64,000 bases of DNA from Kineococcus aurantiacus (GTDB lineage: Bacteria; Actinomycetota; Actinomycetes; Actinomycetales; Kineococcaceae). The stretch covers positions 1,178,001 to 1,242,000 of the forward strand of contig NZ_JACCBB010000001.1 of assembly GCF_013409345.1 (NCBI RefSeq), read 5' to 3'. Within the stretch, counting starts at the first letter, position 1; each line of letters starts with the position of its first letter. Made by a program: the position numbers and the translations under genes. This document shows, in pieces, positions 41,916 to 63,081 of this stretch. The notes under the pieces were generated by a model. That model did not search any database, was not told the origin of the DNA, and was given only the letters and a program-made list of their open reading frames with translations.

Positions 41916-42003
41916 CCATCGGTCCTGGCGGAAGCACCCGCGCCCGTCTCCGGGGGGTTGCTGCGGCGTCTCTGAGCCAGGTCTCTCAGCCGCTCTGGAT
42001 GGT
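41916..42003 (-). promoter_or_regulatory. SAM-I (S-box) riboswitch
   Basis: The read order is CCATCC, AGAGCGGCTGAGAGACCTGG, GACGCCGCAGCAACCCCC, then GGTGCTTCCGCCAGGAC and GATGG, matching the S-box core (P1, kink-turn P2, P3, P4). P1 pairs CCATC with GATGG. The Shine-Dalgarno of the leader ORF overlaps the last two G of P1. A TATGGT -10-like box lies about ten bases upstream. Confidence 0.92.
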
Positions 42004-42066
42004 GTGCCCTGCCACCATAGGGGACCGCGCACCGGATCCTCAAGACCCGCCCGTCCCCACCCGTCG

Positions 42067-42096
42067 TTGACGCCGGGATCGTCCGCGTGCCACGCT
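42067..42096 (+). promoter_or_regulatory. Probable sigma-70-type promoter for the SAM-IV/LLM unit
   Basis: A -35-like TTGACG, an 18-base spacer and a -10-like CACGCT end seven bases before the riboswitch. The same arrangement occurs at 48110-48139. The -10 match is weak. Confidence 0.45.
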
Positions 42097-42102
42097 CCGG
42101 AA

Positions 42103-42216
42103 CAGGTCACGAGTGCTGCCGCGAAGCCCCGGCTCGGCAGCCGGCAACCCCCTCGCACGGCGTGGGGTGCCCCGGGTGAGGACCCGGTCCTGCGGAACCC
42201 GCAGGGCAAGGCAGTG
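42103..42216 (+). promoter_or_regulatory. SAM-IV riboswitch
   Basis: The sequence has AGGTCACGAGTGCTGCCG, AAGCCCCGGCTCGGCAGCCG, GCAACCCCC, GTGGGGTGCCCCGGGTGAGGACC and then a 3' pseudoknot stem GTCCTGCGGAACCCGCAGGGC. This is the actinobacterial SAM-IV layout, sharing the SAM-I core but with a different outer architecture. It is followed by CCGCGGG/CCCGCGG hairpin sequence at about 42216-42231, a possible expression platform. Confidence 0.9.
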
Positions 42217-42318
42217 CTCCGCGGGCCCCCGCGGCGCGACGTCCCCCGGCACGACTGCCGCCCAGGCCACCGCCGGGATCCCCCGCCCGCCGTTCCACGA
42301 CACCGGGAGAACCGACCC

Positions 42319-43410
42319 GTGAAGTTCCTCGCGATGACCCTCATCACCCACACCCCCGACCCGGTGACGGGGGTGTGGCCGACCCAGCACGAGCGCTTCA
42401 CCGAGGTGGTCGAGAACGCCACCCTGGCCGAGCAGTGGGGTTTCGACGCCTACGGCGTCGGGGAACGGCACGAGCGCCCGTTCCTGTCCTCCTCCCCCAC
42501 CGTCGTCCTCTCCAACATCGCGGCCCGCACGTCGCGGATCAAGCTGTTCACGACCGTCACGACGCTCAGCCTGCTCGACCCGGTGCGTGCCTACGAGGAC
42601 TACGCGACCCTGGACCACCTCGCGGACGGCCGCCTCGAACTCATCGTCGGCAAGGGCAACGGCGCGGCGCAGGCGAACCTGTTCCACGTCACGACCGACG
42701 ACCAGTGGGACCGCAACGCCGAGGGGTACGAGCTGTTCCGCCGGTTGTGGCGGGAGGAGCAGGTCACCTGGCAGGGCCGGTTCAGGCCGTCGCTGGACCG
42801 GGCCGAGACCTGGCCGGCCCCCTACCAGCGCGACCTGCGGATCTGGCACGGCAGCGCGACCAGCGAGGAGTCGGTCGAGGTCGCCGCGGCGGCCGGGGAC
42901 CCGCTGTTCTCGGCGAACGTCACGTACCCGATCGACACGTACGCCCGGCTCGTGGAGCACTACCGCGAACGGTGGGCCGCGCACGGGCACGACCCGGCCG
43001 ACGCGCTCGTGGGAGCGGGTTCGGCGGGCAGCTTCGTGGCCCGCACCTCCCAGGAGGCGCGCCGGGTCTGGCGGCCGCACTTCGAGGCCCGCCAGAAGGC
43101 GTTCGCCGGCAGCGGTGTCCCGGCGGTGTGGGAGGACTTCGAGGACTTCCTCGCCCGCAGTTCCGCCCTCGTCGGCTCCCCCGAGGAGGTCGTCGACAAG
43201 GTCGGCCGCTACCACGCCCGGTTCGGGCACGAGGTGACCGCGCTGCACTTCGACCGCTCCGGGTTCAGCGAGGCGCAGCACCGCGAGAACTGGGACCTGT
43301 TCACCACCGACGTGGCCCCCGTGCTGCGGCGGCAGTTCCCGTCCCGGCCGCTCGTGCCGGCCCCGGCGCAGGCGCAGGGCCGCGCCCCGCTCGTCCCCGC
43401 CGCGTCCTGA
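42319..43410 (+). CDS. LLM-class flavin-dependent oxidoreductase
   Basis: The 363-aa luciferase-like TIM-barrel protein uses reduced flavin (FMNH2 or F420, undetermined) and O2 or hydride chemistry. EQWGFDAYGVGERHERPFLSSSP, TTLSLLDPVRAYEDYATLDHL and GRLELIVGKGNG are family motifs. The GTG start follows GGGAGA about 100 nt after a SAM-IV riboswitch. The context suggests a role in organosulfur use (inference). Confidence 0.9.
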   Translation: MKFLAMTLITHTPDPVTGVWPTQHERFTEVVENATLAEQWGFDAYGVGERHERPFLSSSPTVVLSNIAARTSRIKLFTTVTTLSLLDPVRAYEDYATLDHLADGRLELIVGKGNGAAQANLFHVTTDDQWDRNAEGYELFRRLWREEQVTWQGRFRPSLDRAETWPAPYQRDLRIWHGSATSEESVEVAAAAGDPLFSANVTYPIDTYARLVEHYRERWAAHGHDPADALVGAGSAGSFVARTSQEARRVWRPHFEARQKAFAGSGVPAVWEDFEDFLARSSALVGSPEEVVDKVGRYHARFGHEVTALHFDRSGFSEAQHRENWDLFTTDVAPVLRRQFPSRPLVPAPAQAQGRAPLVPAAS

Positions 43411-43433
43411 CGCGGACAGTTCCCGGCACGACC

Positions 43434-44475
43434 TCAGCCCAGCCCCAGGTTCCCCCGCAGCGTGCCCGCCGCGTACTCGCGCCGGAAGAGCCCGCGCTCC
43501 TGCAACCGCGGGACCACGAGGTCGGTGCACGCCTCCAGCCCCGCCGGCACGTGCGTGGGGATGACGGTGAACCCGTCCGCGGCCCCGTGCTCGAACCAGT
43601 GCTGCAGGTCGTCCGCGACCTCGTCGGCGGACCCGACGAGGAGCCGGTGGCCGTTGGTCGCCGCCGCGTGCCGCGCCAGTTCCCCCAGCGTCCAGCCGGC
43701 CCGCGCCGCGGGCCCGAACAGCAACGCCACGCGGCTGCGTCCCAGGGAGCTGGGCGGCAGGTCCCGCACGGGTTGCTCCGGGTCGGCCCCCGTGAGATCC
43801 AGCCCGGAACGCCACGACAGCTGCCGCAACCCGGCCACCGTGTCCTGCAGCTCCTGCAGCTACGCCCACACCTCCTGCGCCGCAGCGCGGGTCGCCGCGA
43901 CGACCGGCAGCACACCGGGGAACACGAGGACCTGCTCCGGTTCACGTCCGTGCACCCGGGCGGCGGCGTGGACGCGCTCCCGGAAACCTCGTCCCTCGGT
44001 GGGGTCCTGCGCGACGGTACAGACGACGTCGACGAACTCGGCCGCGCGCAGGTAGCGGGTCGCGTGGTCGGGGAACCGCGCCGGCCCGAAGTTCGCGACC
44101 ACGTCGGCGAACTGGCTCGTGACGGCGTTCCAGCCGGCCCGGCCGTGGCTGATGCGGTCCAGCGACGCGAACTGCCGGGCGAGGTCGCAGGGCTCGCTGA
44201 ACGTCGTCGACGCGGTCGCCACCAGACCGAGGTGCCGGGTCCCGCGGGCCACGGCCGCCAGCAGCGTCAGCGGCTCGACCGCCCGGACGGGACCGTCGTG
44301 CCCCGGCCGCGGCGCGGTCAGGGCGTCCTCGCAGAAGAACAGGTCGAACCGGGCCCGCTCGGCCAGCTGCGCCGTGTGGACGATCCAGTCGACGTCGTCG
44401 GCCCGTCCCCGCGCCCCCGGCAGCCGCCACCCGCCGGGGCTCGGTTCGACGCGGTGGTGGGTACCCGGCCGGCGT
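43434..44475 (-). pseudogene. Decayed LLM monooxygenase (NtaA/SnaA/DszA type)
   Basis: The remnant can be followed in one frame: GGWRLPGARG and AQLAERARFDLFFCEDAL near the start, DLARQFASLDRISHGRAGWN, then an in-frame TAG (43860-43862) exactly where family members read ELQEL, then LQELQDTVAGLRQLSWRSG to GTLRGNLGLG. No ATG, GTG or TTG start is found after the metE terminator. The middle segment between the barrel half and REPEQVLVFPG appears missing by roughly 100 residues compared with intact paralogues in this window. Start loss, deletion and stop together indicate a true pseudogene. Confidence 0.82.
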
Positions 44476-44494
44476 CCGGTGGGAGGGCGGTCGT

Positions 44495-44525
44495 GCGGGC
44501 CGGGCACCGCCGGTGCCCGGCCCGC
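44495..44525 (-). terminator. Terminator after metE
   Basis: GCGGGCCGGGCACC pairs perfectly (14 bp) with GGTGCCCGGCCCGC around a three-base loop, about 35 nt after the metE stop. Confidence 0.85.
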
Positions 44526-44560
44526 AGGGTGTTCCGGTGGCCCGCCGCGGCGGGCCGGCG

Positions 44561-46891
44561 TCAGCTCGCGACCGGCGACCCGACGGGCAGTTCCGCGCGG
44601 ACGGTGCGGGCGGCCTCCACGAGGTGGCGCAGCGACTCCGTCGTCTCGGCGTAGCCGCGGGTCTTCAGCCCGCAGTCGGGGTTCACCCACAGCTGGCGGG
44701 CCGGCACGGACCCGACGGCCGAGCGCAGCAGGTTCACGACCTCCTCGGTGGACGGGACCCGCGGGGAGTGGATGTCGTACACGCCCGGCCCGATGCCGCG
44801 GGCGAACCCGGCGCGGGCGATGTCCCCGAGGACCTCCATGCGCGAGCGGGCGGCCTCGATGCTCGTCACGTCGGCGTCGAGGCCGTCGATCGCGTCGATG
44901 ACCTCGCCGAACTCCGAGTAGCACAGGTGCGTGTGGATCTGCGTGGCGTCGGCCGCACCCGCGGTCGCCAGGCGGAAGGAGGCGACCGACCAGTCGAGGT
45001 AGGCCGCCTGGTCCGCCGTCTTCAGCGGCAGCAGCTCGCGCAGCGCGGGCTCGTCGACCTGCACGATGCCGATGCCGGCGGCCTGGAGGTCGGCGACCTC
45101 GTCCCGCAGCGCGAGGGCGACCTGGTTCGCGGTGTCCCCCAGCGGCTGGTCGTCGCGCACGAACGACCACGCGAGGATGGTCACCGGGCCGGTGAGCATG
45201 CCCTTGACCGGCTTGGTCGTGCGGCTCGCGGTGTAGGTGCTCCACGGGACGGTGATCGGCGCGGGGCGCGTCACGTCGCCCCACAGGATCGGCGGCCGGA
45301 CGCCGCGCGAGCCGTAGGACTGCACCCAGCCGTGCTGCGTGACGGCGAACCCGTCGAGCTGCTCGGCGAAGTACTGGACCATGTCGTTGCGCTCGGGCTC
45401 GCCGTGGACGAGGACGTCCAGGCCCAGCTCCTCCTGCAGCTGCACGACGCGGTCGATCTCGGCGCGCAGGAAGTCCTCGTAGGCCGTCCCGTCCAGCTCG
45501 CCGCGGGACCAGGCCGCGCGGGCCCGGCGGATCTCGGTGGTCTGCGGGAAGGAGCCGATGGTGGTCGTGGGCAGCGCCGGCAGGTGCAGCGCCTCGTCCT
45601 GGGCGGCGCGGCGGACGGCGTAGTCGCTGCGCCGGAAGTCCTGCGGGGTCAGCGCCGCCAGGCGCTCGCGCACCTCGGGGCGGACGACCCCGGGGGCGGC
45701 GAGCCGGTCGGCCAGGGCCGCGGCCGAGGCCGCGAGCTCGGTCTCGACCGCGGCGGCGTCGGCGAGCGCCCTGCCGAGCACGACGACCTCGGTGACCTTC
45801 TGGTCGGCGAAGGCCAGCCAGCCGCGCAGCCGCTCGTCGAGCGCCGTCTCGCGGGTCACGTCGTGCGGGACGTGCAGCAGCGAGGTGGAGGTCCCGGCCA
45901 CGACGTGCGCGGCGAAGCCCTCGAGCTCGCGCAGGGTGGCGAGGGCGTGGACGAGGTCGCGGCGCCAGACGTTGTGACCGTCGACGACCCCGCCGACGAC
46001 GGTCTTGCCGGCCAGGACCGAGCGGTCCGCCGGGACGGAACCCTCGACGAGGTCGAGGGCGAGGCCCTCGACCGCCCCGAAGGAGGCGAGGTGGTCGCCC
46101 GCGTCGCCGTAGGGCGTGGCGACGAGCAGGCGCGGGCGGTGCGCCAGGCCCGTGAGGCGCGCGTAGGCCGCCCGCACGAGGTCGTCGAGCCCGTCGACAC
46201 CGGCGGTGGCGGAGTCGCTGACCAGACCGGGTTCGTCCAGCTGGACCCACTCGGCACCGGCCGCGGCGTACGCGGCCAGCAGGTCCTCGTAGGCGCCGAG
46301 GAGGTCGTCGAGCCGCGAGAGGGGGGCGAACCCCTCGGGGCTGCCGTCGGCGGCCTTGGCCAGCAGCAGGAACGTCACGGGGCCCACGACGACGGGACGG
46401 GTGAGGAAACCGTCGGCGAGGGCCTCGGAGAACTCGCGCACGCCCCGGTCGTCGGCGAACCGGAACGCGGTGCCGGGGCCGATCTCGGGGACGAGGTAGT
46501 GGTAGTTCGTGTCGAACCACTTCGTCATCTCCAGCGGGGCCTGCGCCCCGCGCCCGCGGGCGATCGTGGAGTAGCCGGTGAGGTCGACCCTGCCGTCGGG
46601 GCCGACGACGTCGGCGAAGCGCTCCGGGACGGCCCCGACGGCGACCGCGGTGTCGAGGACCTGGTCGTAGGCGGAGAACGACGACGGGATGGACGCGTCG
46701 TGCGCCGGCAGGCCGAGGGCGTTGAGGCGGCGGACGGTGGCCGCGCGGACGGCGGCGAGCCGCTCCTCGGTGGTGGCCAGGTCGGCCTTGCCGGACCACA
46801 GGGCCTCCAGGGCCTTCTTGGTCTCGCGGTCGGGACCGATCCGGGGGTAGCCCAGGATCGTCGCGGTCCAGGCGGGGGTGGTCTGGCTCAT
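44561..46891 (-). CDS. metE: Cobalamin-independent methionine synthase
   Basis: The protein has 776 aa, normal for MetE. It transfers a methyl group from methyltetrahydropteroyl-triglutamate to homocysteine. [19 protein letters not shown] at the N-terminus, [18 protein letters not shown] at the start of the second barrel, and zinc-site regions [10 protein letters not shown] and [11 protein letters not shown] are intact, with [10 protein letters not shown]. The ATG start overlaps the metF stop (ATGA). It is under the SAM-I riboswitch upstream of metF. Confidence 0.98.
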
Positions 46892-47856
46892 CGGGTGCTT
46901 CCTCCTGCTGCGGCGGTCGCCTCCACGGCGGCGGCGGGTCGGGGGTGGGTCGCGGGTCGGGTCAGGTCGAGGTGGTCGAGCAGGTCCAGCGCGGGGGCGG
47001 CCGCGTTGAACGTGTACAGGTGCAGGCCGGGCGCGCCGGCCTCGAGCAGGCCGTGCGCCAGTCCCGAGGTGAACGCGGTGGCGGCCCGGCGGCGGGTCGG
47101 GGCGTCGTCGGTGTCCAGGGCCGCGAGCAGCCCCCGCGGGGCCCGGACGCCGGTGAGCTCGCCGATCCGCTCCAGGCGCCGTGGGTCGTCGGAGACCGCG
47201 ACGCCGGGCAGCAGCGGGATGGTGATCCCGGCCGCGCGGGCCCGGCGGACGAACGCGGCGTACTCCTGCGCGGAGAACGTCACCTGGCAGATCGCGAACC
47301 GCGCCCCGGCGTCCTGCTTGGCGCGCAGGACGGCGAGCTCGTGGTGGTCCCTGGCCCGCGGGAAGGCGGCCACGGCCAGGCTGAGCGGTCCCTCGTCGAG
47401 GGGGCGGGAACCGCCGCGCAGCGCCAGCCGACGCCTGTCGGCCACCTGCAGCAGTTCCACGAGGTCCCGGGCGGTGGCCACGCCGTCGGGGTGCGGCGTC
47501 CAGTCCGGGACACCGGCCGGCGGGTCCCCCCGCAGCGCCAGGACGTTGCGGACGCCGGCGTCGAGGAACTCGGTGGCCAGTTCCACGACCTGCCGGCGCG
47601 AGGAACCCACGCACGTCAGGTGGGCCATGGCCGGGACCGCCGAGGTGGTCAGGACGTGCGCCAGCAGGTCCCGGCTGGGACCGCGGGTCGCTCCCGCCGC
47701 GCCGAAGGTGACGGACACGAAGTCGGGGTTGCTCCCCAGGAGGTCGGACAGCCTGCGCCACAACGAGTCGCGGCCGGTCTCCGAGCGCGGGGGGAAGAGT
47801 TCGAAACTGAGCGTGGGCCGCCCCGCGGCGCCGGCGACGAGGGGCGCGAGCGTCAT
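46888..47856 (-). CDS. metF: Methylenetetrahydrofolate reductase
   Basis: The protein has 322 aa, a TIM-barrel flavoenzyme making 5-methyl-THF, the methyl donor for Met[14 protein letters not shown] near the N-terminus, [11 protein letters not shown] in the middle and [13 protein letters not shown] later are characteristic. The ATG start overlaps the stop of a 19-aa upstream ORF by ATGA, so initiation is probably coupled to its translation. metF-metE form one riboswitch-controlled methionine unit. Confidence 0.93.
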
Positions 47857-47912
47857 CGCACGGGTCCCGGACCCGGGGCCGGGGAGGGGACGACGACATC
47901 GGTGGTGCGCAT
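47853..47912 (-). CDS. Short leader ORF, 19 aa, overlapping metF start
   Basis: The [25 protein letters not shown] has GGAG six bases upstream, and that GGAG overlaps P1 of the SAM-I riboswitch. Its TGA overlaps the metF ATG. It has no cysteine but is Pro-rich. Translational coupling would place metF initiation under riboswitch control of this ORF. Confidence 0.6.
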
Positions 47913-47920
47913 CACGAACT

Positions 47921-48007
47921 CCATCGACCTGGCGTTAGCACCCTCGCCCGGGCTCGGGGGGTTGCTGCGGCGTCGTCGAGCCAGGACTCTCAGCCGCTCT
48001 GGATGGT
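47921..48007 (-). promoter_or_regulatory. SAM-I (S-box) riboswitch upstream of metF-metE
   Basis: CCATCC, AGAGCGGCTGAGAGTCCTGG, GACGCCGCAGCAACCCCCC, GGTGCTAACGCCAGGTC and GATGG give the complete S-box core. Methionine genes directly downstream support SAM as ligand. A TACATT -10-like box lies about 13 bases upstream. Confidence 0.93.
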
Positions 48008-48109
48008 GTTCTTCGAATGTAGACCGACCGCGACGCCGTCCACAAGTGGTTCCCCCGGACGGCCCCCCGGCGGGCGGCGCTCCCGGGACCGGGCCGCGAC
48101 GCACCGACC

Positions 48110-48139
48110 TTGATTCCCGGCGCCCGCACGTGGCAATCT
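48110..48139 (+). promoter_or_regulatory. Probable promoter for the SAM-IV/aminotransferase unit
   Basis: TTGATT, an 18-base spacer and CAATCT end six bases before the riboswitch. This matches the spacing seen at 42067-42096 and 62954-62983. Confidence 0.5.
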
Positions 48140-48144
48140 CCCCC

Positions 48145-48263
48145 CAGGTCATGAGCGCCAGCGACAAGCCCCGGCTCGCTGGCCGGCAACCCTCCTCCGC
48201 GGTGGGGTGCCCCGGGTGACGACCTGGCCGGTTCCGACGTGGTTCCGGCAAGCGCGGACCTCG
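48145..48263 (+). promoter_or_regulatory. SAM-IV riboswitch
   Basis: AGGTCATGAGCGCCAGCG, AAGCCCCGGCTCGCTGG, CCGGCAACCCTCC, GGTGGGGTGCCCCGGGTGACGACCT, then a 3' stem-loop around GGTTCCGACGTGGTTCC and GGCAAGCGCGG. This is very close to the known actinobacterial SAM-IV consensus. It lies 50 nt before the aminotransferase start. Confidence 0.94.
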
Positions 48264-48313
48264 CCGGGGCGATCCCGGTCCTCCCGGCAGGGTCCACTGT
48301 CCCGAGGAGCCCC

Positions 48314-49654
48314 GTGACGACGAGCACCCTGTCCCCCACCCGCCCCGCCTGTCGCACGGTGCCGCCGCTGCTGCCCGTCGTCGGCGCCGACACCCCGGTC
48401 CCGCTGGCCACCGGGGGCACCACCACCTACGCCAACCTCGACAACGCGGCGAGCGCCCCGGCGCTGGCGGCGGTGGCGGACCGGGTCGCGCAGGTGCTGC
48501 CGCACTACGCCAGCGTCCACCGCGGCGCCGGCTACCTCTCGCAGGTGTCCACCGCCCTGTTCGAGCAGGCCCGCGAGCAGGTGGGCCGCTTCCTGGGGGC
48601 CCGCGAGGACGACGTCGTGGTCTTCACGCGCAGCACGACGGACGCCCTGGACCTGCTGTCCCGGGCCGTCCCCGCCGGCGCGCGGGTGCTGGTCGCGGAC
48701 GTCGAGCACCACGCGAACCTGCTGCCCTGGCAGCGCTCGGCCCGCACCACGGTGGTCCGCGGCGGCGCCGACGCCGAGGAGACCACGGCCCTGCTGGAGG
48801 CGGAGCTGGCCACCGGGCAGTACGCCCTGCTGGCCGTCGCCGGCGCGTCCAACGTCACCGGGGAGGTGCTGCCGCTGCGCCGGCTGGCCCGGGCCGCGCA
48901 CGCCGCCGGGGCCCGCCTCGCCGTCGACGGGGCCCAGCTGCTGCCGCACCGGCGCGTCGACGTCGCCCGCGACGGGATCGACTGGATCGCGCTGTCCGGG
49001 CACAAGCTGTACGCCCCGTTCGGGGCGGGGGCCCTGGTGGGGCGCCGGGACTGGCTGGACGCCGCCGAGCCCTACCTCGCCGGTGGCGGGGCCACGCTCG
49101 ACGTCAGCCACGACGCGGTGCGGTGGGCGACCGGCCCGGACCGGCACGAGGCGGGTTCCCCGAACGTGGTCGGCGCGGTGGCGCTGGCGCAGGCGTGCAC
49201 GACGCTGGCGGCCCTGCCCGCAGGGGCCCTGGAGGCCCACGAGGCGGCGCTGCGCGCGCAGCTCGTCACCGGCCTGAGCGCGCTGGAGGGCGTGCGGGTC
49301 GTGCGCCCGCACCCGGCCGACGCCGTGGGGGTCGTGACGTTCACCGTGCCCGGCCGCCCGGTGTCGGAGGTGGCGGCGTACCTGTCGGCCGAGCACGGCG
49401 TCGGGGTGCGCGACGGCAGGTTCTGCGCGCACCGCTTCGCGAACTCCCTGGGGCTGGTGGAGGGCGGGTTGCGCGCCTCCACGGGCGTCGGGACGAGCTC
49501 GGCCGACGTGGAGCGGCTGCTGGCCGCGCTGGAGCAGTTCCTCACCACGGGCTCGGCGCTGGAGTACGGGGTCGTCGAGGGCCGCTGGGGTCCGCTCACC
49601 GACGCCCGCCCGGCGCCGGAGTCCTTCCTCGACCCCGTCCCGGAACTGGGCTAG
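48314..49654 (+). CDS. Class V aminotransferase, SufS/cysteine-desulfurase-like
   Basis: The protein has 446 aa. NLDNAASAPALAAVADRV is the N-terminal family motif. WIALSGHKLYAPFGAGALVG carries the PLP-binding lysine, and VGVRDGRFCAHRFANSLG has a cysteine in the loop where desulfurases hold their catalytic Cys. It may release sulfur from cysteine or a selenium/sulfur amino acid, or act as a lyase on an organosulfur product. The GTG start is preceded by AGGAG. It is regulated by a SAM-IV riboswitch. Confidence 0.88.
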   Translation: MTTSTLSPTRPACRTVPPLLPVVGADTPVPLATGGTTTYANLDNAASAPALAAVADRVAQVLPHYASVHRGAGYLSQVSTALFEQAREQVGRFLGAREDDVVVFTRSTTDALDLLSRAVPAGARVLVADVEHHANLLPWQRSARTTVVRGGADAEETTALLEAELATGQYALLAVAGASNVTGEVLPLRRLARAAHAAGARLAVDGAQLLPHRRVDVARDGIDWIALSGHKLYAPFGAGALVGRRDWLDAAEPYLAGGGATLDVSHDAVRWATGPDRHEAGSPNVVGAVALAQACTTLAALPAGALEAHEAALRAQLVTGLSALEGVRVVRPHPADAVGVVTFTVPGRPVSEVAAYLSAEHGVGVRDGRFCAHRFANSLGLVEGGLRASTGVGTSSADVERLLAALEQFLTTGSALEYGVVEGRWGPLTDARPAPESFLDPVPELG

Positions 49655-49661
49655 CCTGCCC

Positions 49662-49776
49662 GCAGGTCACGAGAACCAGCGACAAGCCCTGGCTAGCTGG
49701 TCGGCAACCCTCCCCGCGGTGGGGTGCCCCAGGTGACGACCCGGCCGGAGGGAACCCTCCGGCAAGCGCGATGACC
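49662..49776 (+). promoter_or_regulatory. SAM-IV riboswitch
   Basis: AGGTCACGAGAACCAGCG, AAGCCCTGGCTAGCTGGT, CGGCAACCCTCC, GGTGGGGTGCCCCAGGTGACGACC, then the 3' stem CCGGAGGGAACCCTCCGG with GCAAGCGCG. It begins seven bases after the aminotransferase stop, and a TAGCCT -10-like box overlaps that stop codon. It may therefore be read both from its own promoter and as an internal operon element. Confidence 0.93.
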
Positions 49777-49818: not shown

Positions 49819-51015
49819 GTGCCCGAAACCCTTCACCTGTCCGCCGCCCTCGAGTCGACCGGCTGGCACCCGGCGTCCTGGCGGGAACCCGGCTCCCGGG
49901 CCGGGGAGCTGTTCACCGCGCGGTTCTGGGCCGACACGGTCGCCGAAGCCGAGCGCGGCCTGTTCGACCTGGTGACCGTCGAGGATTCCTTCGGCCTGCA
50001 GGGCAGCGGCTTCGGCCCGCCCGACGACCGCACCGACCGGGTCGCCGGCCGGCTCGACGCGCTGCTGGTCGCGGCCCGGCTCGCCCTGGTGACCGAGGCG
50101 ATCGGGCTGGTCCCGACCGTCTCGACGACGCACACCGAACCGTTCCACGTCTCCAAGGGCCTGGCCACGCTGGACCACGTGAGCTCGGGCCGGGGCGGGT
50201 GGCGGGCCCAGGTCGCCGCCCGGGCGCACGAGGCGGAGCTGTTCGGCCGGCGCTCGATCCCGGCGGTCACCCGCGAGACGCTGCAGGACCCCGCGGTCGT
50301 CGCCGTCGTCGAGGACCTGTTCGCCGAGGCCCGCGCCGTCGTCGACACCGTCCGCGCGCTGTGGGACTCCTGGGAGGACGACGCGGTGGTCCGCGACGTC
50401 GCCACGGGCCGCTTCGTCGACCGCACCAAGCTGCACCGCGTCGCCGCGCAGACCCCGTGGTTCTCCGTCCTGGGGCCCTCGATCACGCCCCGCCCGCCGC
50501 AGGGCCAGCCCGTCGTGACGGCCCTGGCGCACGCCAGGACCGCCTACGAGTTCGCCGCCGCGAGCGCCGACGTCGTGTTCGTCACCCCCCGCGACGCGCA
50601 GGACGCCCGCGCGGTCGTCGCCGAGGTCCGGGCCGCGGAGGCCGCAGTGGGCCGGCGGGGTGTGCCGCTGCAGGTCCACGCCGACCTCGTGGTGGCCCTG
50701 GCCGCCGACGCCGCGCAGGCCCGCAACCGGCTGGACCGCCTCGACTCCGCCGACGGGGAGGCGTTCACGTCCGACGCGCTCGTCGTCGCCGACTCCCCCG
50801 CCGGCCTCGTCGAGCGGCTGCTGCTGTGGCGGGACGCGGGGATCGAGGGGTTCCGCTTCCGCCCGGCGGTGAACGCCACCGACCTGCCGGCCCTCGTCGA
50901 CGAGGTCGTGCCGCTGCTGCAGTCCGCGGGGGCCTTCCGCCGCGCGTACACCGGCGCCACCCTGCGCGACCACCTCGGGCTGGCCCGGCCCGCCAACCGC
51001 TACGCCACCGTCTGA
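49819..51015 (+). CDS. LLM-class flavin-dependent oxidoreductase
   Basis: The protein has 398 aa. Its N-terminus LHLSAALESTGWHPASWREP, then VTVEDSFGLQ, TTHTEPFHVSKGLATLDHVS, and WDSWEDDAVVRDVATGRFVD identify the luciferase-like family. It is the nearest relative in the window of the gene at 59298-60341. The GTG start follows AGGAGGAGA. It heads a four- to five-gene operon controlled by the SAM-IV riboswitch. Confidence 0.9.
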   Translation: MPETLHLSAALESTGWHPASWREPGSRAGELFTARFWADTVAEAERGLFDLVTVEDSFGLQGSGFGPPDDRTDRVAGRLDALLVAARLALVTEAIGLVPTVSTTHTEPFHVSKGLATLDHVSSGRGGWRAQVAARAHEAELFGRRSIPAVTRETLQDPAVVAVVEDLFAEARAVVDTVRALWDSWEDDAVVRDVATGRFVDRTKLHRVAAQTPWFSVLGPSITPRPPQGQPVVTALAHARTAYEFAAASADVVFVTPRDAQDARAVVAEVRAAEAAVGRRGVPLQVHADLVVALAADAAQARNRLDRLDSADGEAFTSDALVVADSPAGLVERLLLWRDAGIEGFRFRPAVNATDLPALVDEVVPLLQSAGAFRRAYTGATLRDHLGLARPANRYATV

Positions 51016-56315: not shown

Positions 56316-57724
56316 TCAGCGCAGGGCGGCCTCGTCGGCCCGGTGCGCCCACTGCGCGAACGTCTCCTCCTCCTCCCGCTCGGCGAGCCGGCACTCCAGG
56401 TCGCTCACCGCCTCGGCCGCGGTCCGCTTCGTCTCGACGATCGCGAGCTCGCAGCACTCGATGCCGGTGCAGGCCGTCGTGGTGCGCCGGAACGGGCTGG
56501 GGGCCGTGCTCAGCCCGATGCGGTCGAGCTGCGCGGTGAGCTGCCCGACGCGCCCGGGCGGCACGTCCAGCACCAGGACCTCCTGCTGGGGGGTGAGCCG
56601 CACGCGCCGCGAGCCCACGGCTTCGGCGGCGTCGGCCAGCCCGGTCAGGACGTCGGCGCTGACCCGGTCCGCCACCGGGGTCGCCCCCACGTGGCGCAGG
56701 CCGTCCTTCTGCTCGTGGACCCCGACGTGGTCCCCGGCGCCCGTCGGGGCCGGGGCGGGCGGCCCGTCGGCCAGCGCGTACCCGAGGTGGTCGCGCTCCA
56801 GGACCTCGCGGAACCGCACCGGGCCCCGGTCGGCGAGCAGGAACTCCAGCCGGGCGCGGTGCCGCAGCCGCCGGTAGCCGTGGTCGCGGAAGATCCGCAC
56901 GACCCCGTGCCAGACGTCGGCCGCCTGCTCGGGCCGGACGAAGGCCCCCAGGCGCTCGGCGAGGCGGGGGTTCGTCGACAGCCCCCCGCCGACCCACAGG
57001 TCGTACCCCGGACCCAGCTCGGGGTGCTCCACGCCGACCAGCGAGACGTCGTCGATCTCGTGCACGACGTCCTGGCTGGGGTGCCCCGTGACCGCGGATC
57101 GAACTTGCGGGGCAGGTTCGCGAGGTCGGGGTCGCCGACGAACCGCCGCACGATCTCCTCGACCACCGGCGTCGGGTCGAGGACCTCGTCGGCCGCCACC
57201 CCGGCGACCGGGCTGCCCAGGACGACGCGGGGGCCGTCGCCGCAGGCCTCCGTCGTCCGCAGGCCCACGGCCTCCAGCTGCGCCCAGATCGCGGGGACGT
57301 CCTCGATGCGCACCCGGTGCAGCTGGACGTTCTGCCGGTCGGTGAGGTCGGCGGTGCCGCGGGCGTACGTGCGGGAGACGTCGCCCAGGACGCGCAGCTG
57401 CCGCGTCGTGAGGGCGCCGCCGTCCAGCCGGACGCGCAGCGTGAAGCACTCGTCGGACAGCTCGGCCGCGGTGAGCTGCGCGGTGCGGCCACCGGGGACG
57501 CCGGGACGGCGCTGCGTGTGCAGCCCCCACCAGCGGAACCGGCCGTCGAGGTCGTCGGGGTCGATGGAGGCGAACCCCTGGTGGGCGTAGACCCGCTCGA
57601 TGCGCCCGCGCACCTCCAGCGGGGGTCCGTCGGGCGTGAACTGCTCGTCGTGGTTCAGCGGGGTGCGCCCGTCCACGAGCCACTGCCCGTGGGTGCGTCC
57701 CCGTGCGGTCTCGTCGCCGGACAT
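56316..57724 (-). pseudogene. Ferredoxin-type sulfite (or nitrite) reductase, frameshifted and internally deleted
   Basis: The N-terminal frame gives RGRIERVYAHQGFASIDPDD, RQLRVLGDVSRTYARG and DPDLANLPRKF. The second frame resumes SAVTGHPSQDVVHEIDDVSL through GYDLWVGGGLSTNPRLAERL to the end. Two bases (57099-57100) stand where a codon is expected, so one base is missing. The first iron-sulfur motif CTGIECCELAIVETK is present. The text then jumps from DLECRLAE to REEEETFAQWAHRADEAALR, without the second motif (GCPNxC) or its surroundings, a loss of about 95 residues. The enzyme could not bind its [4Fe-4S]-siroheme centre. Confidence 0.85.
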
Positions 57725-57800
57725 GCGGTCCTCGATCACGTGGGAGGGGGTGCGTGGAGCTCGGTTGACACGGCGACGGGACGTGTCGTTGACTGTGCGA

Positions 57801-57885
57801 ACCATCCAGAGCGGCCGAGAGACTTGGCTCGACGACGCCGCAGCAACCCCCTCCGAGGGTCGGTGCTTCCGCCAAGGACGATGGA
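57801..57885 (+). promoter_or_regulatory. SAM-I (S-box) riboswitch
   Basis: CCATCC, AGAGCGGCCGAGAGACTTGG, GACGCCGCAGCAACCCCC, GGTGCTTCCGCCAAGGAC and GATGG form a complete S-box. The GGAGG ribosome site of the downstream TTG start begins inside P1. TTGACA at 57765-57770 is a candidate -35. The element is divergent to the decayed sulfite reductase gene. Confidence 0.93.
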
Positions 57886-57892
57886 GGACGCG

Positions 57893-59269
57893 TTGCCCGG
57901 CCCCAAGCCGTTGCTGCTCAACCTGTTCGAGATGAACTGCGTGAGCCACATCACGCACGGGCTGTGGCGGCTGCCCGGCAACCACCGCCACGAGTTCAAC
58001 GACATCGGGTACTGGACGACGCTGGCCCGGCTGGCCGAGGACGCGCAGTTCGACGCCGTCTTCCTCGCCGACGTGATCGGCGCCTACGACGTCTACCGCG
58101 ACGGCCCGCAGACGGCGCTGCGCGAGGGGCTGCAGGTCCCCAGCAACGACCCGATGCTCGTCGTGCCCGCGATGGCGGCCGTGACCGACCACCTCGGGTT
58201 CGCGGTCACGTTCTCCACCAGCTACGAACCGCCGTTCCCCTTCGCCCGCCGCATGAGCACCCTGGACCACCTCACGAAGGGCCGCGTGGGCTGGAACGTC
58301 GTCACGAGCTACCTGCCCAGCGCGGCGCGCAACTTCGGGCTGCCCGGTGAGATCGCGCACGACGAGCGGTACCGGATCGCGGACGAGTTCATGGAGGTCG
58401 TCTACGCGCTGTGGGAGGGTTCCTGGGACGCCGGGGCGGTCGTCGCCGACCGCGAGCGGGGCGTGTTCACCGAACCCGACCGGGTGCGTGCGATCGACCA
58501 CGACGGCACGTACTTCCGGGTGGCCGGGCCGCACCTGTCCTCCCCCTCGCCGCAGCGGACCCCGCTGGTCGTCCAGGCCACGGCGTCGGCCGACGGCATC
58601 GAGTTCGCGGGCCGGCACGCCGAACTGGTGTTCACCGGCGGACCGGACCACGCCGCGGTCGCCCGCACGATCGCGGCGGTGCGCGAGGCCGCCGCCCGTC
58701 ACGGCCGGGACCCGCGCAGCGTGAAGTTCGTGGTGCAGGCGACCGTCATCACGGGGCACACCGAGTCCGACGTGACCGCCAAGCTCGCCGCGCACGCCCG
58801 GTACGACAGCCTGGAGGGCAGGTTCGCGCACGCCTCGCTGCCGTTCGACCCGCTGGCCCACCCCGCGGACCGGACCGTCGGGGAGGCCCTCGCGCTCGAG
58901 GGGCGCGCCGACCACCCCGGCGCGGCCGGGCTGCCCCGGCAGCGCACCGTGGGTGAGTTCGCCGCGGCGATCGCCCGGCGCGAGCGCACCTTCTCGGCCG
59001 TCGGGACCCCCGACGCGGTCGTCGCGCAGATCGAGCACTGGCTCGACGACGTCGGCATCGACGGCATCAACCTCACCCAGCACCACAGCTACGGCACCCT
59101 GCTGGACTTCGCCGAGCTCATCGGGCCCCGGTTGCGGGCCCGCGGCCGCCGGCCCGAGGGCTACGTCCCGGGGCAGACGCTGCGCGAGCGCTTCGGCGGC
59201 GCCGGGCCCCTCCTGCCCGGCGAGCACACCGGCGCCCGGTTCCGGCGCGCCGCCGTCCCCACCCCGTGA
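57893..59269 (+). CDS. LLM monooxygenase, NtaA/SnaA/DszA type
   Basis: The protein has 458 aa. LFEMNCVSHITHGLWRLPGN, DAVFLADVIGAYDVY, DHLTKGRVGWNVVTSYLPSA and TPLVVQATASADGIEFAGRH identify the family, known for FMNH2-dependent attack on nitrilotriacetate, dibenzothiophene sulfone and similar substrates. The TTG at 57893 has GGAGG five bases upstream and is preferred; an in-frame ATG four codons earlier lies inside the riboswitch. First gene of a three-LLM operon. Confidence 0.92.
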   Translation: MPGPKPLLLNLFEMNCVSHITHGLWRLPGNHRHEFNDIGYWTTLARLAEDAQFDAVFLADVIGAYDVYRDGPQTALREGLQVPSNDPMLVVPAMAAVTDHLGFAVTFSTSYEPPFPFARRMSTLDHLTKGRVGWNVVTSYLPSAARNFGLPGEIAHDERYRIADEFMEVVYALWEGSWDAGAVVADRERGVFTEPDRVRAIDHDGTYFRVAGPHLSSPSPQRTPLVVQATASADGIEFAGRHAELVFTGGPDHAAVARTIAAVREAAARHGRDPRSVKFVVQATVITGHTESDVTAKLAAHARYDSLEGRFAHASLPFDPLAHPADRTVGEALALEGRADHPGAAGLPRQRTVGEFAAAIARRERTFSAVGTPDAVVAQIEHWLDDVGIDGINLTQHHSYGTLLDFAELIGPRLRARGRRPEGYVPGQTLRERFGGAGPLLPGEHTGARFRRAAVPTP

Positions 59270-59297
59270 CCCGCACCCCCTCAGACCAGGAGCCGAC

Positions 59298-60341
59298 ATG
59301 CCCACCCCGTTCCACGTGTTCCTGGAGGTCGACGGCGGCGGGTGGCACCCCGCCGCCTGGCGCCGTTCCCGCTCCACGCCCGACCAGGTGTTCTTCCCCG
59401 CCCGCCTGCGCGAGTTCGCCGTCACCGCGCAGGCGCAGGGCCTGACGGGCCTGACGTTCGAGGACTCCACCGCCCCGGACCCGCGCAACCCTGTCGGGCA
59501 CCTCGACGCCGTCCAGCGCGCGGCCTTCCTGGCCGGCACGACGGACGCGGTCGGGCTGCTGCCGGTGGCCGCGACGACGTACTCCGAACCGTTCCACGTC
59601 GCCGCCCAGATCGCCTCCCTGGACCACTCCAGCCACGGCCGGGCCGGCTGGATCGCGACGACCTCCCCCGCGCGCGCGGCGCGGGCCGTGGACCTGCCCG
59701 TCGCGGCGGACCCGGCCGCGGAACTGGCCGACGTCGTGCGTGCCGTGCGGGCGCTGTGGGACTCCTGGGAGGACGACGCGGTCGTCCGCGACGTCGCCAC
59801 GGGGCGCTACGTCGACCGCGACCGCCTGCACCACGTCGACGTCGAGACGGGCCGCTGGTCGGTCAAGGGCCCGCTCACCGTGCCGCGCAGCCCGCAGGGC
59901 CAGTCCGTCGTCGTCGTCCACGAGCGCGACCTGACGCCCACCACGCACGCCGACGTGGTGCTCAGCGGGGACGAGGGGGCCCGCCGCACCGCGGGCGGCC
60001 CGCTCGTCGTGCTGGACGTCGAGTTCGCCCTCGACACCGAGGCCCACGCCGCGGCCGACCGCCTCGCGGCCCTGGACGCCGACGCGGCCGCCCCGGCGTC
60101 CGGGCGCATCCGCTGGTCGGGCTCGGGCGAGGGGTTCGCCCGGTACCTGTCGGGGCTGGCCGGTTCGGTGAACGGCGTCCGCCTGCACGCGGCCGTCCTC
60201 GACGAGGACCTGCGCACCCTGCTGCGCACGACCCTCCCGGCGCTGCGCGTCGCCCGCCTCCTGCAGGCGCCCGTCGCGGGAGCCACGCTGCGCTCCACCC
60301 TGGGCCTGGCGCGGCCCGTCAACCAGTTCGCCACGGCCTGA
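59298..60341 (+). CDS. LLM-class flavin-dependent oxidoreductase
   Basis: The protein has 347 aa. FHVFLEVDGGGWHPAAWRRS, LTFEDSTAPD, TTYSEPFHVAAQIASLDHSS and WDSWEDDAVVRDVATGRYVD match the gene at 49819-51015 closely, but the C-terminal half is about 50 residues shorter. The ATG start follows AGGAG. Second gene of the SAM-I-controlled LLM operon. Confidence 0.9.
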   Translation: MPTPFHVFLEVDGGGWHPAAWRRSRSTPDQVFFPARLREFAVTAQAQGLTGLTFEDSTAPDPRNPVGHLDAVQRAAFLAGTTDAVGLLPVAATTYSEPFHVAAQIASLDHSSHGRAGWIATTSPARAARAVDLPVAADPAAELADVVRAVRALWDSWEDDAVVRDVATGRYVDRDRLHHVDVETGRWSVKGPLTVPRSPQGQSVVVVHERDLTPTTHADVVLSGDEGARRTAGGPLVVLDVEFALDTEAHAAADRLAALDADAAAPASGRIRWSGSGEGFARYLSGLAGSVNGVRLHAAVLDEDLRTLLRTTLPALRVARLLQAPVAGATLRSTLGLARPVNQFATA

Positions 60342-60352
60342 GGACACGAACG

Positions 60353-61669
60353 ATGACCGAACTCCGGTACCCCGACGCCGTCGTCCACTTCGGCGTGTTC
60401 TTCCAGGGCGTCAACCACAGCACCATCTGGTCGGACCCCCGCAGCGGGTCGCAGATGCACCACTCGACGTTCACCCAGCTCGTCCGGACCGCCGAGCGGG
60501 GGTTGTTCGACGCATTCTTCCTCGGCGAGGGCCTGCGGCTGCGCGAGCAGCACGGGAAGATCCACGACCTCGACGTCGTGGGACGGCCCGACGCCCTCAC
60601 GGAACTGGCCGCGCTGGCGGGCCTGACCTCCCGCATCGGCCTGGTCGCGACCCAGAACACCACCTACAACGACCCGGCGGACCTGGCGCGGCGGCTGGCG
60701 TCGCTGGACGTCCTGTCCGGTGGCCGGGCCGCGTGGAACGTCGTGACGACCGACAACGCCTGGACGGGGGCGAACTTCCGCCGCGGCGGCTACCTCGACC
60801 ACGCCGACCGGTACGAGCGCGCCGAGCGCTTCGTGAACCTCGCCAAAGCGGTCTGGGACAGCTGGGACGGGAGGGGTTTCACACCGGTCACCTCCTCCGA
60901 CCGGTTCTTCGACGTGGAGATCGAGCCGACCGTGCCGCGCAGCCCGCAGGAGCACCCGGTTCTGTTCCAGGCCGGCGACTCCCCCGCGGGCCGCGACTTC
61001 GCCACCCGGACCGCCGACGTCATCTTCTCCCGGCACGGCACCGACCACGCCGACGCCCTGGAGTTCGCCGACGACATCCGCCGCCGCACGGTCGCCGCGG
61101 GCCGCCCCGAGGGCGACGTGCTCATCCTGCCGGGCACCCAGATCGTCGTGGCCGACAACGAGGCCGAGGTGGAGGAGAAGGCCCGCTGGGTGCTGGAGCA
61201 GCAGGTCACCCCCGCCACCGCCCTGTCCCTCGTCGGCCAGGTGTGGGGCGAGGACCTGTCCGGCTACGACCCCGACGGCCCGCTGCCCGCGCACGACCCC
61301 GTCATCGCGGACATCGACGGGACCCGCGGTGCGCACCGCGCGGGCGCCGACGCGCGGGCGCTGGCCCAGCAGTGGCGGGCGGTCGCGGAGGAGAACAAGT
61401 TCTCGCTGCGCGAGCTCGTGCTGCACCACTCCTCCGAACGCGGCTTCGCCGGCACCGCCTCCCAGCTGGCCGACGAGCTCGCGTTCTGGGTCCGCTCCGG
61501 CGCCAGCGACGGGTTCAACATCACGCCCTACCTCGTGCCCAGCGGGCTCGACGACATCGTCGACCAGGTCGTCCCGGCGCTGCAGGACCGCGGGGCCTAC
61601 CCGAGCGAGTACGTCGGGACCACCCTGCGCGAGCACCTCGGCCTGCGGGCCCCCCTGACCCGCCGCTGA
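60353..61669 (+). CDS. LLM monooxygenase, NtaA/SnaA/DszA type
   Basis: The protein has 438 aa. FFQGVNHSTIWSDPRSGSQ, FDAFFLGEGLRLREQHGK, DVLSGGRAAWNVVTTDN and TVPRSPQEHPVLFQAGDS align with 51030-52397. It starts 12 nt after the previous stop with GAGGACACGA upstream of ATG. Last gene before a strong terminator. Confidence 0.92.
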   Translation: MTELRYPDAVVHFGVFFQGVNHSTIWSDPRSGSQMHHSTFTQLVRTAERGLFDAFFLGEGLRLREQHGKIHDLDVVGRPDALTELAALAGLTSRIGLVATQNTTYNDPADLARRLASLDVLSGGRAAWNVVTTDNAWTGANFRRGGYLDHADRYERAERFVNLAKAVWDSWDGRGFTPVTSSDRFFDVEIEPTVPRSPQEHPVLFQAGDSPAGRDFATRTADVIFSRHGTDHADALEFADDIRRRTVAAGRPEGDVLILPGTQIVVADNEAEVEEKARWVLEQQVTPATALSLVGQVWGEDLSGYDPDGPLPAHDPVIADIDGTRGAHRAGADARALAQQWRAVAEENKFSLRELVLHHSSERGFAGTASQLADELAFWVRSGASDGFNITPYLVPSGLDDIVDQVVPALQDRGAYPSEYVGTTLREHLGLRAPLTRR

Positions 61670-61730
61670 CCCCACCCCTCCACCCCTCACCCACCCACCC
61701 ACTCACTCACTCACCCATCCCACTCCTTCG

Positions 61731-61805
61731 CTTTCCCGCTCAAAGCACGGTTCGGGCCCTCCACGCGCCGCGTGGAGGGCCCGAACCGTGCTTCGAGCGG
61801 GAAAG
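61731..61805. terminator. Long inverted repeat, bidirectional terminator
   Basis: Arms of about 35 bases (CTTTCCCGCTC...CACGCG and its complement) pair with one A/C mismatch around a very short loop. It sits between the LLM operon and the convergent ATP-grasp gene. Both ends carry CTTT/AAAG, giving short T-runs in each direction. Confidence 0.88.
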
Positions 61806-61870
61806 GCGTCAGCGGGGGAAGGGGGCGTCAGTGGGGAGGGGGGTCGGCGGGAGGGGGCGTCAGCGGGGGT
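61806..61870. repeat. Three degenerate G-rich repeats around GCGTCAGCGGGG
   Basis: GCGTCAGCGGGG, GGCGTCAGTGGGG and GGCGTCAGCGGGGG occur in 65 bases, with G-runs between them. The last copy covers the ATP-grasp stop codon. Upstream (61675-61720) is a CACC/CACT microsatellite-like tract. This suggests replication slippage around the gene end. Confidence 0.6.
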
Positions 61871-62867
61871 GCGTCTCGGCGCGCAGGAGATCGCCGAGGT
61901 AGCGGGCGATCTCGCCCGGGCCCGAGCGGGGGGCGACGGCCTCGACGGCCGGGTTGTAGTTCGTGTTCGTGTTGATGTCGTAGGTGACGGTGCGGCCGTC
62001 GGCGGTCTCGAGGAACTCGATGCCGGCGATCTCGATCCCCGCGCCGCGCAGCAGCTCCTCGTACCGCTTCACCAGCGGGGTGTCGGCCGTGATCTCCTCG
62101 CGCAGCGTGAACAGGCCCTGCGGGCCGTCGACGACGCACGCCTCCAGCGTCTGCCCGGAGGTCGGCACCTCGCACGCGTCGGCCGGGCACAGCTCGAAGC
62201 TGCCCGCGGAGGTGTCCACCCGCACCGCGTACACGAACCGGCCCCCGACGAACTCGGCGCGGGTGATGAACGGCTGCGCCGAGCGCAGGTACTCCTGCAG
62301 GAGGGTGATCCCGTCGGCCGGTTCCTCGAACTCCGCGGAGGCGACGTAGGCGTCGAACTCCTCGTGGGTGTCGAACCGGCGCACCCCCAGACCCTTGCCG
62401 CCCTGGTTGTGCTTGGTGATGAACGGCGCCGCCAGCTCCCGGGCCCGCACGCCCAGCTCCTGACGGCCGAAGACCGCGAGCGTGCGCGGCACGTCGAACC
62501 CGTGCCGGCGCAGCAGGGCGTGCTGGGCGACCTTGCTGACCTCCAGCTCCACGACGTGCGAGCCGCCCACGACGCGCCGGCCCCAGCCCTCCAGCCAGGC
62601 CACCACCGCGCGGGTGTACTCCTTGGTGAAGCGGTGCTCGCGGGTGTGCGCGGAGGCGCTCAGCCGCGACCAGTACACGCCCGGAGCGGGCTCGGCGTCG
62701 AGGTCCAGGGAGCCGTCGGTGAGCAGCACCTCCTGGAACGGCACGTCGGCCGCGCGGAAGGCGGACTCGAAGGGCGGGAACCACTCGGGGTTCTCGTGCA
62801 GGACGTGGACGCGGGGCGCGGTGCCGGGCGCGAAGCTCCAGGCGCGGGTGTGCTCGACGACGGTCAC
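61860..62867 (-). CDS. ATP-grasp domain ligase
   Basis: The protein has 335 aa. FDVPRTLAVFGRQEL precedes the ATP-binding strand PFITKHNQGGKGLGVRRFD. LLQEYLRSAQPFITRAEFVG and the C-terminal metal site YDINTNTNYNPAVEAV complete the fold. Such ligases join a carboxylate to an amine through acyl-phosphate. The GTG start follows GGAGGAA. It is divergent from the SAM-I riboswitch and FAD/NAD(P)-binding gene, so it may act in the same pathway; the substrate is unknown. Confidence 0.85.
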   Translation of the reverse strand: MTVVEHTRAWSFAPGTAPRVHVLHENPEWFPPFESAFRAADVPFQEVLLTDGSLDLDAEPAPGVYWSRLSASAHTREHRFTKEYTRAVVAWLEGWGRRVVGGSHVVELEVSKVAQHALLRRHGFDVPRTLAVFGRQELGVRARELAAPFITKHNQGGKGLGVRRFDTHEEFDAYVASAEFEEPADGITLLQEYLRSAQPFITRAEFVGGRFVYAVRVDTSAGSFELCPADACEVPTSGQTLEACVVDGPQGLFTLREEITADTPLVKRYEELLRGAGIEIAGIEFLETADGRTVTYDINTNTNYNPAVEAVAPRSGPGEIARYLGDLLRAETHPR

Positions 62868-62953
62868 GGGGTTCCTCCGGTGCTCTCGGGAGTCCTGGGT
62901 ACAGGGTGCCACCACGGGCGCGGTCCCGGCTCCCGGGCCGCCCCGGGGGCTGT

Positions 62954-62983
62954 TTGGAGAAACACGGCCCGGTGGGCTACTTT
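62954..62983 (+). promoter_or_regulatory. Probable promoter for the SAM-I/FAD-binding unit
   Basis: TTGGAG, an 18-base spacer and TACTTT end seven bases before the riboswitch. Of the promoter candidates in the island this has the best -10 box. Confidence 0.5.
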
Positions 62984-62990
62984 CGTGGTG

Positions 62991-63081
62991 TCCATCCAGA
63001 GCGGCCGAGAGACCTGGCTCGTCGACGCCGCAGCAACCCCCTGAGCCGTCAGGCGCGGGTGCTTCCGCCAGGACCGATGGG
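62991..63081 (+). promoter_or_regulatory. SAM-I (S-box) riboswitch
   Basis: CCATCC, AGAGCGGCCGAGAGACCTGG, GACGCCGCAGCAACCCCC, GGTGCTTCCGCCAGGACC and GATGG give a complete S-box. GGGAG, the ribosome site of the leader peptide, shares its first bases with P1. Confidence 0.93.

Follow-up and report, generated by a model that had tools for sequence, protein, structure and literature searches.

The window analysed here, a 64,000-nucleotide stretch of the genome of the soil actinobacterium Kineococcus aurantiacus (contig NZ_JACCBB010000001.1, positions 1,178,001 to 1,242,000), carries seven S-adenosylmethionine (SAM) riboswitch aptamers, four of the SAM-I class and three of SAM-IV, in front of genes that, by their family matches, may be read as a set for organosulfur scavenging and methionine synthesis. 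The original prediction, made from the letters of the DNA alone, had placed these seven elements within about 21 kb and proposed a run of the Rfam SAM (RF00162) and SAM-IV (RF00634) covariance models as the check. In that run (cmscan, Rfam 15) all seven were recovered where they had been placed, the SAM-I elements at 51.4-63.7 bits (4/4 above the gathering score of 44.4) and the SAM-IV elements at 80.1-111.6 bits (3/3 above 38); the 11 window matches at gathering threshold comprise these seven aptamers and four tRNAs. The ligand-contacting core of SAM-I includes GCAACC, GGUGC and AUC/GAU in the P1 stem, and these were found by eye in all four window SAM-I elements (three alignments and one sequence).

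A codon-usage script supplied the gene calls, Pfam and NCBIfam the names, and the start codons are predictions; the gene labels given earlier (importer, metF-metE, desulfurase-like, luciferase-like monooxygenase (LLM) and FAD-binding) agree with the families found. On the reverse strand lies an ATP-binding cassette (ABC) importer operon of the oligopeptide/nickel type (36634-41727), with a family-5 binding protein (40135-41727), two permeases and a double ATPase. It is preceded on the same strand by a SAM-I aptamer (41913-42005, 55.4 bits), whose P1 3' end, CGAUGGAGG, holds a Shine-Dalgarno (SD) sequence, by a leader open reading frame (ORF; 41828-41905), VDRTSHTAIWRRVVDFCLTGSSGCR followed by a stop, which begins at a GTG 7 nt past the aptamer and has a UGU cysteine codon 8 codons after a VDF motif, and by a C-rich spacer without a U-tract (41728-41827). 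Back to back with this aptamer, across 99 bp (42006-42104) that should contain both predicted promoters, a forward-strand SAM-IV aptamer (42105-42218, 80.1 bits) precedes an LLM gene (42319-43410, PF00296). The genes metE (44561-46891; cobalamin-independent methionine synthase; PF01717, PF08267, NF003556) and metF (46888-47856; methylenetetrahydrofolate reductase; PF02219) follow on the reverse strand, with a short upstream ORF (uORF; 47853-47912) that lacks a cysteine codon and ends in an ATGA overlap with the start of metF, and a SAM-I aptamer (47918-48009, 63.7 bits). Another back-to-back interval, of 137 bp (48010-48146), leads to a forward-strand SAM-IV aptamer (48147-48260, 111.6 bits) and a SufS-family class-V aminotransferase gene, cysteine-desulfurase-like (48314-49654; PF00266, with TIGR01979 below cut-off). 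The remaining units are also on the forward strand: a SAM-IV aptamer (49665-49774, 107.4 bits) before two NtaA/DmoA-type LLM genes (49819-51015 and 51030-52397; PF00296, the first below and the second above the TIGR03860 cut-off); a SAM-I aptamer (57799-57887, 54.9 bits) that again ends in CGAUGGAGG and stands directly before a three-gene LLM operon (57893-61669); and a SAM-I aptamer (62989-63083, 51.4 bits, ending in CGAUGGGAG) followed by a leader ORF (63091-63183), VNGRTAPGSLLVRRRHVDLGRLSSAVCAGV and a stop, with UGU cysteine 8 codons after VDL, a spacer (63184-63255) and a gene for a 657-residue FAD-NAD(P)-binding protein (PF13454) that occupies 63256-64000 and extends past the window. Downstream of the last gene lie a permease (PF00528), an ATPase (NCBIfam) and a family-3 binding protein (PF00497), an ABC transporter of the polar-amino-acid type by family search. 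Rhodaneses are among the further genes named from Pfam and NCBIfam, and the same approach identified an NlpA lipoprotein and a Cys/Met-metabolism pyridoxal phosphate enzyme at other places in the genome.

What each SAM-I element faces was surveyed in 114 SAM-I matches from the 24 positive genomes among 39 searched in the order (of these matches, 104 exceed the Rfam cut-off and 10 fall short of it). In 107/114 the 3' strand of P1 enters a GGAG-type SD, so that SAM should block translation of the next ORF. By a script in which a leader is a short ORF with V/I-D-L/F/H, that ORF is a structural gene in 52 cases and a VDL-type leader in 41; 19 elements precede some other short ORF and 2 precede none. 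Reading by hand found two LDL leaders among the 19 and showed both cases without an ORF to be leaders with an AUG inside P1 as their start, bringing the SAM-I elements with a leader to 45/114. At L110 and L114 it is an IDL leader that starts from such an AUG, with no SD-preceded start codon behind the aptamer. The 13 SAM-I elements of K. aurantiacus precede seven leaders, one uORF and five genes, and those of the window precede a leader (41913), the metF uORF (47918), a gene (57799) and a leader (62989). The gene behind the 57799 aptamer is predicted to start at TTG 57893 just past the SD, with an alternative in-frame ATG at 57881 within P1; either start would be blocked by P1. Folded alone and without ligand, the four window SAM-I regions had energies no better than shuffled sequences (z 0.34 to 1.60), and the minimum-energy fold contained P1 at 41913 and, in a shifted register, at 62989, but lacked it at 47918 and 57799. 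The earlier view that SAM controls each unit is partly supported, and needs revision in that several of the aptamers face a leader ORF and not the gene directly; the signal is therefore probably SAM together with cysteine at the leaders, or SAM via translational coupling at metF, and not SAM alone.

The leaders share the motif Rx(H/V)VDL or VDF and, after seven further residues, a cysteine at the eighth codon. An arginine stands three residues before VDL in all 43 aligned leaders, usually with a second arginine adjacent, and His or Val precedes VDL. Cysteine occupies the fixed position in 39/41 leaders, and its codon there is UGU in 36/39. The remaining Cys codons of the same leaders are UGC in 37/40 and UGU in 3/40, the genes called in the 97 kb examined in this genome have 93 UGC against 1 UGU, and those called in the relatives' loci, some of which overlap, have 185 UGC against 3 UGU. 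VDL and UGU lie a constant distance apart, but the stop lies anywhere from 2 to 25 codons past UGU, which favours an effect of the nascent chain or of codon position over RNA pairing with the stop region. Conservation of UGU at the nucleotide level, beyond the amino acid, would also be expected if the stretch were an RNA element and not a translated peptide, with UGU kept for pairing; this is highly improbable given that the Arg, Leu and Ser codons around UGU differ in their third positions, that the bases flanking it are weakly conserved, and that in three of the four leader groups the ratio of nonsynonymous to synonymous differences (pN/pS) is 0.42, 0.46 and 0.53. The last value belongs to the importer leader at 41828-41905, which has equal-length orthologues in six other genomes of the genus. 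Among eight short ORFs of this genome compared with the NCBIfam model NF042934 (cis_reg_atten, cut-off 27 bits), the leader at 63091-63183 scored 31.8 and L001, behind a SAM-I aptamer outside the window, 30.9, with one further ORF at 24.8 and three at 14.9-20.0; the metF uORF had no match. A search of the whole genome with this model returned 15 matches at E up to 10, six of them directly behind a SAM-I element, including the two best. One leader-like ORF of this genome, TERLHIDLQRTASAR (L037, G000:C1:4078946-4078990, reverse strand), has a TAG stop where the Cys codon usually sits; the gene downstream of it encodes a membrane protein that looks cation symporter-like by eye.

The same arrangement was found beyond the genus. 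A pattern scan of named genomes that required a SAM-I-like sequence and VDL, with UGU left free, gave 75 stretches, of which 36 leaders were kept by an ORF rule; in most of the 39 dropped stretches a simple motif check found no SAM core, and a few others were direct genes or run-off ORFs. These leaders come from Pseudonocardia, Rhodococcus, Williamsia, Geodermatophilus, Blastococcus, Kineosporia, Quadrisphaera, Ornithinimicrobium, Kineococcus (2) and others, and the codon at the fixed site is UGU in 32/36, TGC in three and TGA in one. Rfam places a SAM-I element above the gathering score at the pattern in 31 of 36 stretches (about the same set, with L234 in place of L221); four have none at that score and one stretch ends inside the element.

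The metF loci stand apart. No VDL leader occurs at metF in 14 cases, against 45 of 100 other targets (p = 0.0007, computed on related sequences and with a metF-spotting motif that missed at least one direct metF-like gene, L139). Instead, 12 of the 14 have a short uORF with ATGA or GTGA stop/start overlap, and the other two are direct. Much the same arrangement is described for ppe2 of Mycobacterium tuberculosis, where a B12 riboswitch controls a uORF and an AUGA overlap passes translation on to the gene (PMC11260477). Both have a riboswitch-controlled uORF overlapping the gene start; unlike ppe2, metF uses SAM-I, and the leader-peptide variant found here adds a second input. The metF uORF sequences vary (pN/pS 0.76), as a pure relay would allow, and this fits the simpler account in which the seven elements are ordinary SAM-only OFF switches, each for its own operon, with the short ORFs incidental or a mere translation relay. 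That 5/13 SAM-I elements of this genome act directly on a gene, and that 6/7 of its SAM-IV elements precede a gene at 44-100 nt without an intervening Cys-codon ORF, also suit it. It nonetheless appears quite unlikely, since in the VDL leaders both the motif and the position of the rare-codon UGU are fixed, and these leaders are widely conserved and absent at metF.

The reading favoured here, with a probability of roughly two in three, is that SAM riboswitches govern a regulon for scavenging organosulfur compounds and making methionine, that a short, divergent SAM-I subtype acts as a translational OFF switch, and that the leaders form a gate for SAM and cysteine in series. SAM would stabilise P1, which ends inside the SD of the next ORF. 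Where that ORF is a structural gene, as at the LLM operon at 57893, the gene itself would be switched; where it is the metF uORF, with its stop overlapping the gene start, the effect would be relayed by termination and reinitiation. Where it is a leader, as before the importer (41727) and the FAD gene (63256), three states are envisaged. At high SAM the leader would go untranslated, the C-rich spacer would be naked and the operon off; at low SAM with sufficient Cys-tRNA the ribosome would run off the leader, and the operon would again be off; at low SAM and low cysteine the ribosome would stall at the fixed UGU before the spacer, protecting it, probably from Rho, and the operon would be on. 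In a more specific version, which is put forward tentatively and with the odds against it, Rx(H/V)VDL-7 residues-Cys(UGU) would be a nascent-chain cysteine sensor gated by the riboswitch P1: the motif would lie in the exit tunnel while the slow UGU occupies the A site, the ribosome would stall when Cys-tRNA is short, and Rho would execute the resulting SAM-low AND Cys-low decision.

The execution step was approached through the spacers between leader and gene. These have C 0.539 and G 0.269, a skew of 0.334 (n=31) against 0.054 in ordinary upstream regions (n=52; p = 3.5e-11), with controls drawn from this genome only and spacers from several related genomes that are non-independent. Intrinsic termination was discarded as the execution step, the longest T run in the 31 spacers being 3. 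C-rich spacers, the lack of U-tracts and a rho gene in the genome together suggest a Rho-type termination step at the leader spacers, a possibility placed somewhat short of even odds; Rho has already been proposed for mycobacterial Cys leaders, as a weak prediction (Seliverstov 2005; PMC1262725). Cysteine attenuation of the mycobacterial type offers another route, in which a Cys-stalled ribosome frees a sequestered ribosome-binding site (RBS), here with a SAM-gated instead of a leaderless start. Such attenuation has been demonstrated in M. smegmatis (Canestrari 2020, as cited in PMC9031893 and PMC13236596), and part of the leader set matches the same family (NF042934). Two credible Cys leaders of this genome (L035, L036) have no riboswitch at gathering score and, by eye, begin just downstream of a -10-like box, in the manner of leaderless ORFs. 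RBS sequestration was examined by partition-function folding with each leader codon masked, at 31/43 loci (in six no gene start was found and in six the start is >200 nt off), and was not supported: with a ribosome masked at the Cys codon the mean unpaired value of the RBS was 0.473, against 0.465 without a ribosome. Since the masked ribosome did not open the RBS further, the relief step is unproven; for attenuation by RBS release, this result and the C-rich, G-poor spacers, which disfavour strong sequestering stems, make it unlikely.

The series gate itself has to be weighed against several of the results. The masking result offers it no relief step either, and the spacer contrast that it draws on carries the limits given above; the SAM-IV-to-gene spacers, moreover, show an intermediate C-richness (skew 0.149, n=20). 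L001 (G000:C1:1252805) and its counterpart L050 in G005 are SAM-I-gated VDL leaders without Cys, with CCA or TCA at the site; the operon behind L001 begins with a family-5 binding protein. The fourth leader group, which has length differences, gave a pN/pS of 1.03, and the importer leader at 41828-41905 had no NCBIfam match. A search of 118 class genomes with NF042934, requiring neither SAM nor UGU, found matches at E up to 0.001 in 89; in the best 30 class leaders by protein score the codon is UGU in 30/30 (their other Cys codons being 50 UGC and 14 UGU), but a SAM riboswitch at gathering score lies upstream of only 1/30, which indicates that the leader is widespread, that UGU is general and that the SAM coupling concerns a subset. 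Among the 30 best SAM-I loci of the class, which had 110 positive genomes, an SD at P1 is present in 19/30 and a VDL leader in 0/30, and the canonical actinobacterial SAM-I is not supported as origin of the leader architecture. In these 30 loci 19 have a direct gene start, the genes resembling threonine synthase by eye, and 11 were left unresolved by the script.

The wider census bears on how local the regulon is. The genome holds 20 aptamers, 13 SAM-I and 7 SAM-IV (the latter from the best 150 of 3251 first-look candidates scored). Past the window the cluster goes on, with aptamers at contig positions 1251167 and 1252805 that bring the total to 9 in 33 kb; when 20 points were scattered randomly over 5.03 Mb, neither 9 in 33 kb nor 7 in 21.2 kb occurred in 200,000 trials, a figure that shows merely that the clustering is non-accidental, as genes of like function cluster anyway. 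The original prediction of a dedicated low-SAM regulon assembled in one place therefore holds for a sulfur-scavenging region under SAM riboswitches and fails in that 11/20 aptamers lie elsewhere in the genome. Nine aptamers in 35 kb were found in this genome only, the densest 35 kb of 10 other genus genomes holding 1 to 5 (contig breaks limit some). Both SAM-I and SAM-IV are present in 11/11 genus genomes searched, and the 13 SAM-I copies here compare with 5-12 in each of the 10 others, so that many copies characterise the genus as a whole; its genomes are related, and counts across them are non-independent events. In a sample of 148 class genomes SAM-I was found in 110, this genome included, and the 147 others have at most 2, in a count run with stricter filters in which weak matches are lost.

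The interleaving of two classes, also part of the earlier claim, reduces mostly to one repeated divergent pair. Three times in the genome, twice within the window, a SAM-I and a SAM-IV aptamer face away from each other, at 99, 137 and 138 bp, which would leave a further operator little space between them. A divergent pair occurs in 7/10 other genus genomes, 65-188 bp apart (in one genome SAM-IV/SAM-IV); the metF/desulfurase pair recurs in relatives, as does a pair beside a monooxygenase gene, and back-to-back aptamers are also found in Quadrisphaera (L214) and in another member of the class (L260, G082). The latter has two back-to-back SAM-IV elements, one of them followed by a VDL leader. These pairs are taken as two operons, each with its own switch, and not as a joint device. 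Downstream regions were read for 34 of the 46 SAM-IV elements found in the genus: a VDL-type leader follows 4/34 (one by eye) and an ORF of 8-9 residues with a UGU Cys another 4/34. The latter ORFs, VTKACRRSR (L019, in this genome), VSKDCRRSR (L177), VSKACPRSR (L179) and VSHQTCRR (L180), lack VDL and follow the SAM-IV of one divergent pair in four genomes. At L018 (G000:C1:3699825-3699937, forward strand) a SAM-IV element is followed by an 18-residue Cys-less ORF that ends in a TTGA shared with the TTG at which the next gene starts, resembling the metF uORF relay but behind SAM-IV instead of SAM-I. Behind the desulfurase SAM-IV, GGACC, CCGGGG and CCCGGUCCUCC are invariant in a six-genome alignment and an AGGAG-type SD is present in 6/6; the invariant stretches are compatible with SD sequestration.

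In aptamer consensus, score, sulfur genes and expected OFF switching, the SAM-I elements described here are like SAM-I (RF00162) in general; they differ from the usual form in being a short subtype whose P1 enters an SD that often serves a leader ORF, and in their 13 copies. SAM-IV is known from actinobacteria. The SAM-IV elements conform to RF00634 in consensus and score, and are unusual in standing repeatedly back to back with SAM-I and in preceding VDL or mini UGU leaders in some genus genomes. Control by two signals has a precedent in metE of Bacillus clausii, where tandem SAM and B12 riboswitches give NOR logic; there two aptamers are used, and here one aptamer and one leader peptide, likewise with two signals. 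In the E. coli tnaC leader, ribosomes stall at the stop codon in response to an excess of tryptophan, with a nascent-chain motif and a Rho site past the stop. The proposed parallel lies in a motif at fixed distance from the stall site and a Rho site after the stop, without homology, and a tna-Rho parallel was also drawn in PMC1262725. The leaders resemble actinobacterial Cys leaders (NF042934; PMC1262725; Canestrari 2020) in being short ORFs with Cys near the end, before sulfur operons and without a clear terminator. They differ from them in a fixed UGU in place of a run of Cys codons and in an SD under a SAM riboswitch; SD and aptamer precede the leader ORF, so the leaders are not leaderless as in the mycobacterial cases. 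In Xanthomonas, SAM-I is reported to sense SAM and uncharged initiator tRNA (PMC7270179), likewise a translational SAM-I with a second signal; unlike that tRNA, which is sensed by the riboswitch, the second signal proposed here is Cys-tRNA supply read by a translating ribosome. In the open literature, covered through titles and the starts of abstracts and with most subscription papers outside its scope, no report pairing a SAM riboswitch with a leader peptide or uORF was found, and the papers matching the leader motif string were unrelated by title. Riboswitches and amino-acid-sensing leaders are usually treated as alternatives, and here the two appear to be connected in series, which could allow a single mRNA to respond both to SAM, the end product of the methionine branch, and to cysteine supply. 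Methionine synthesis, through the metF exception, would heed SAM only, and many import and sulfur-release operons seem to heed SAM and cysteine. The UGU at a fixed distance from the motif is a sharp feature beyond the reach of the protein-family model, and the sensing step is directly testable.

Two minor features of the window lie outside this system. A nitrite/sulfite reductase-like gene at about 56316-57720 on the reverse strand has its N- and C-terminal halves in different frames, representing either a broken gene or a sequencing error, and the C-terminal half alone was called (249 aa; PF01077, PF03460). The tRNA-Lys(CTT) gene occurs twice, at 23055-23129 and 25437-25511, 2.4 kb apart and with equal Rfam score and aligned sequence, possibly through duplication or through insertion between the copies.

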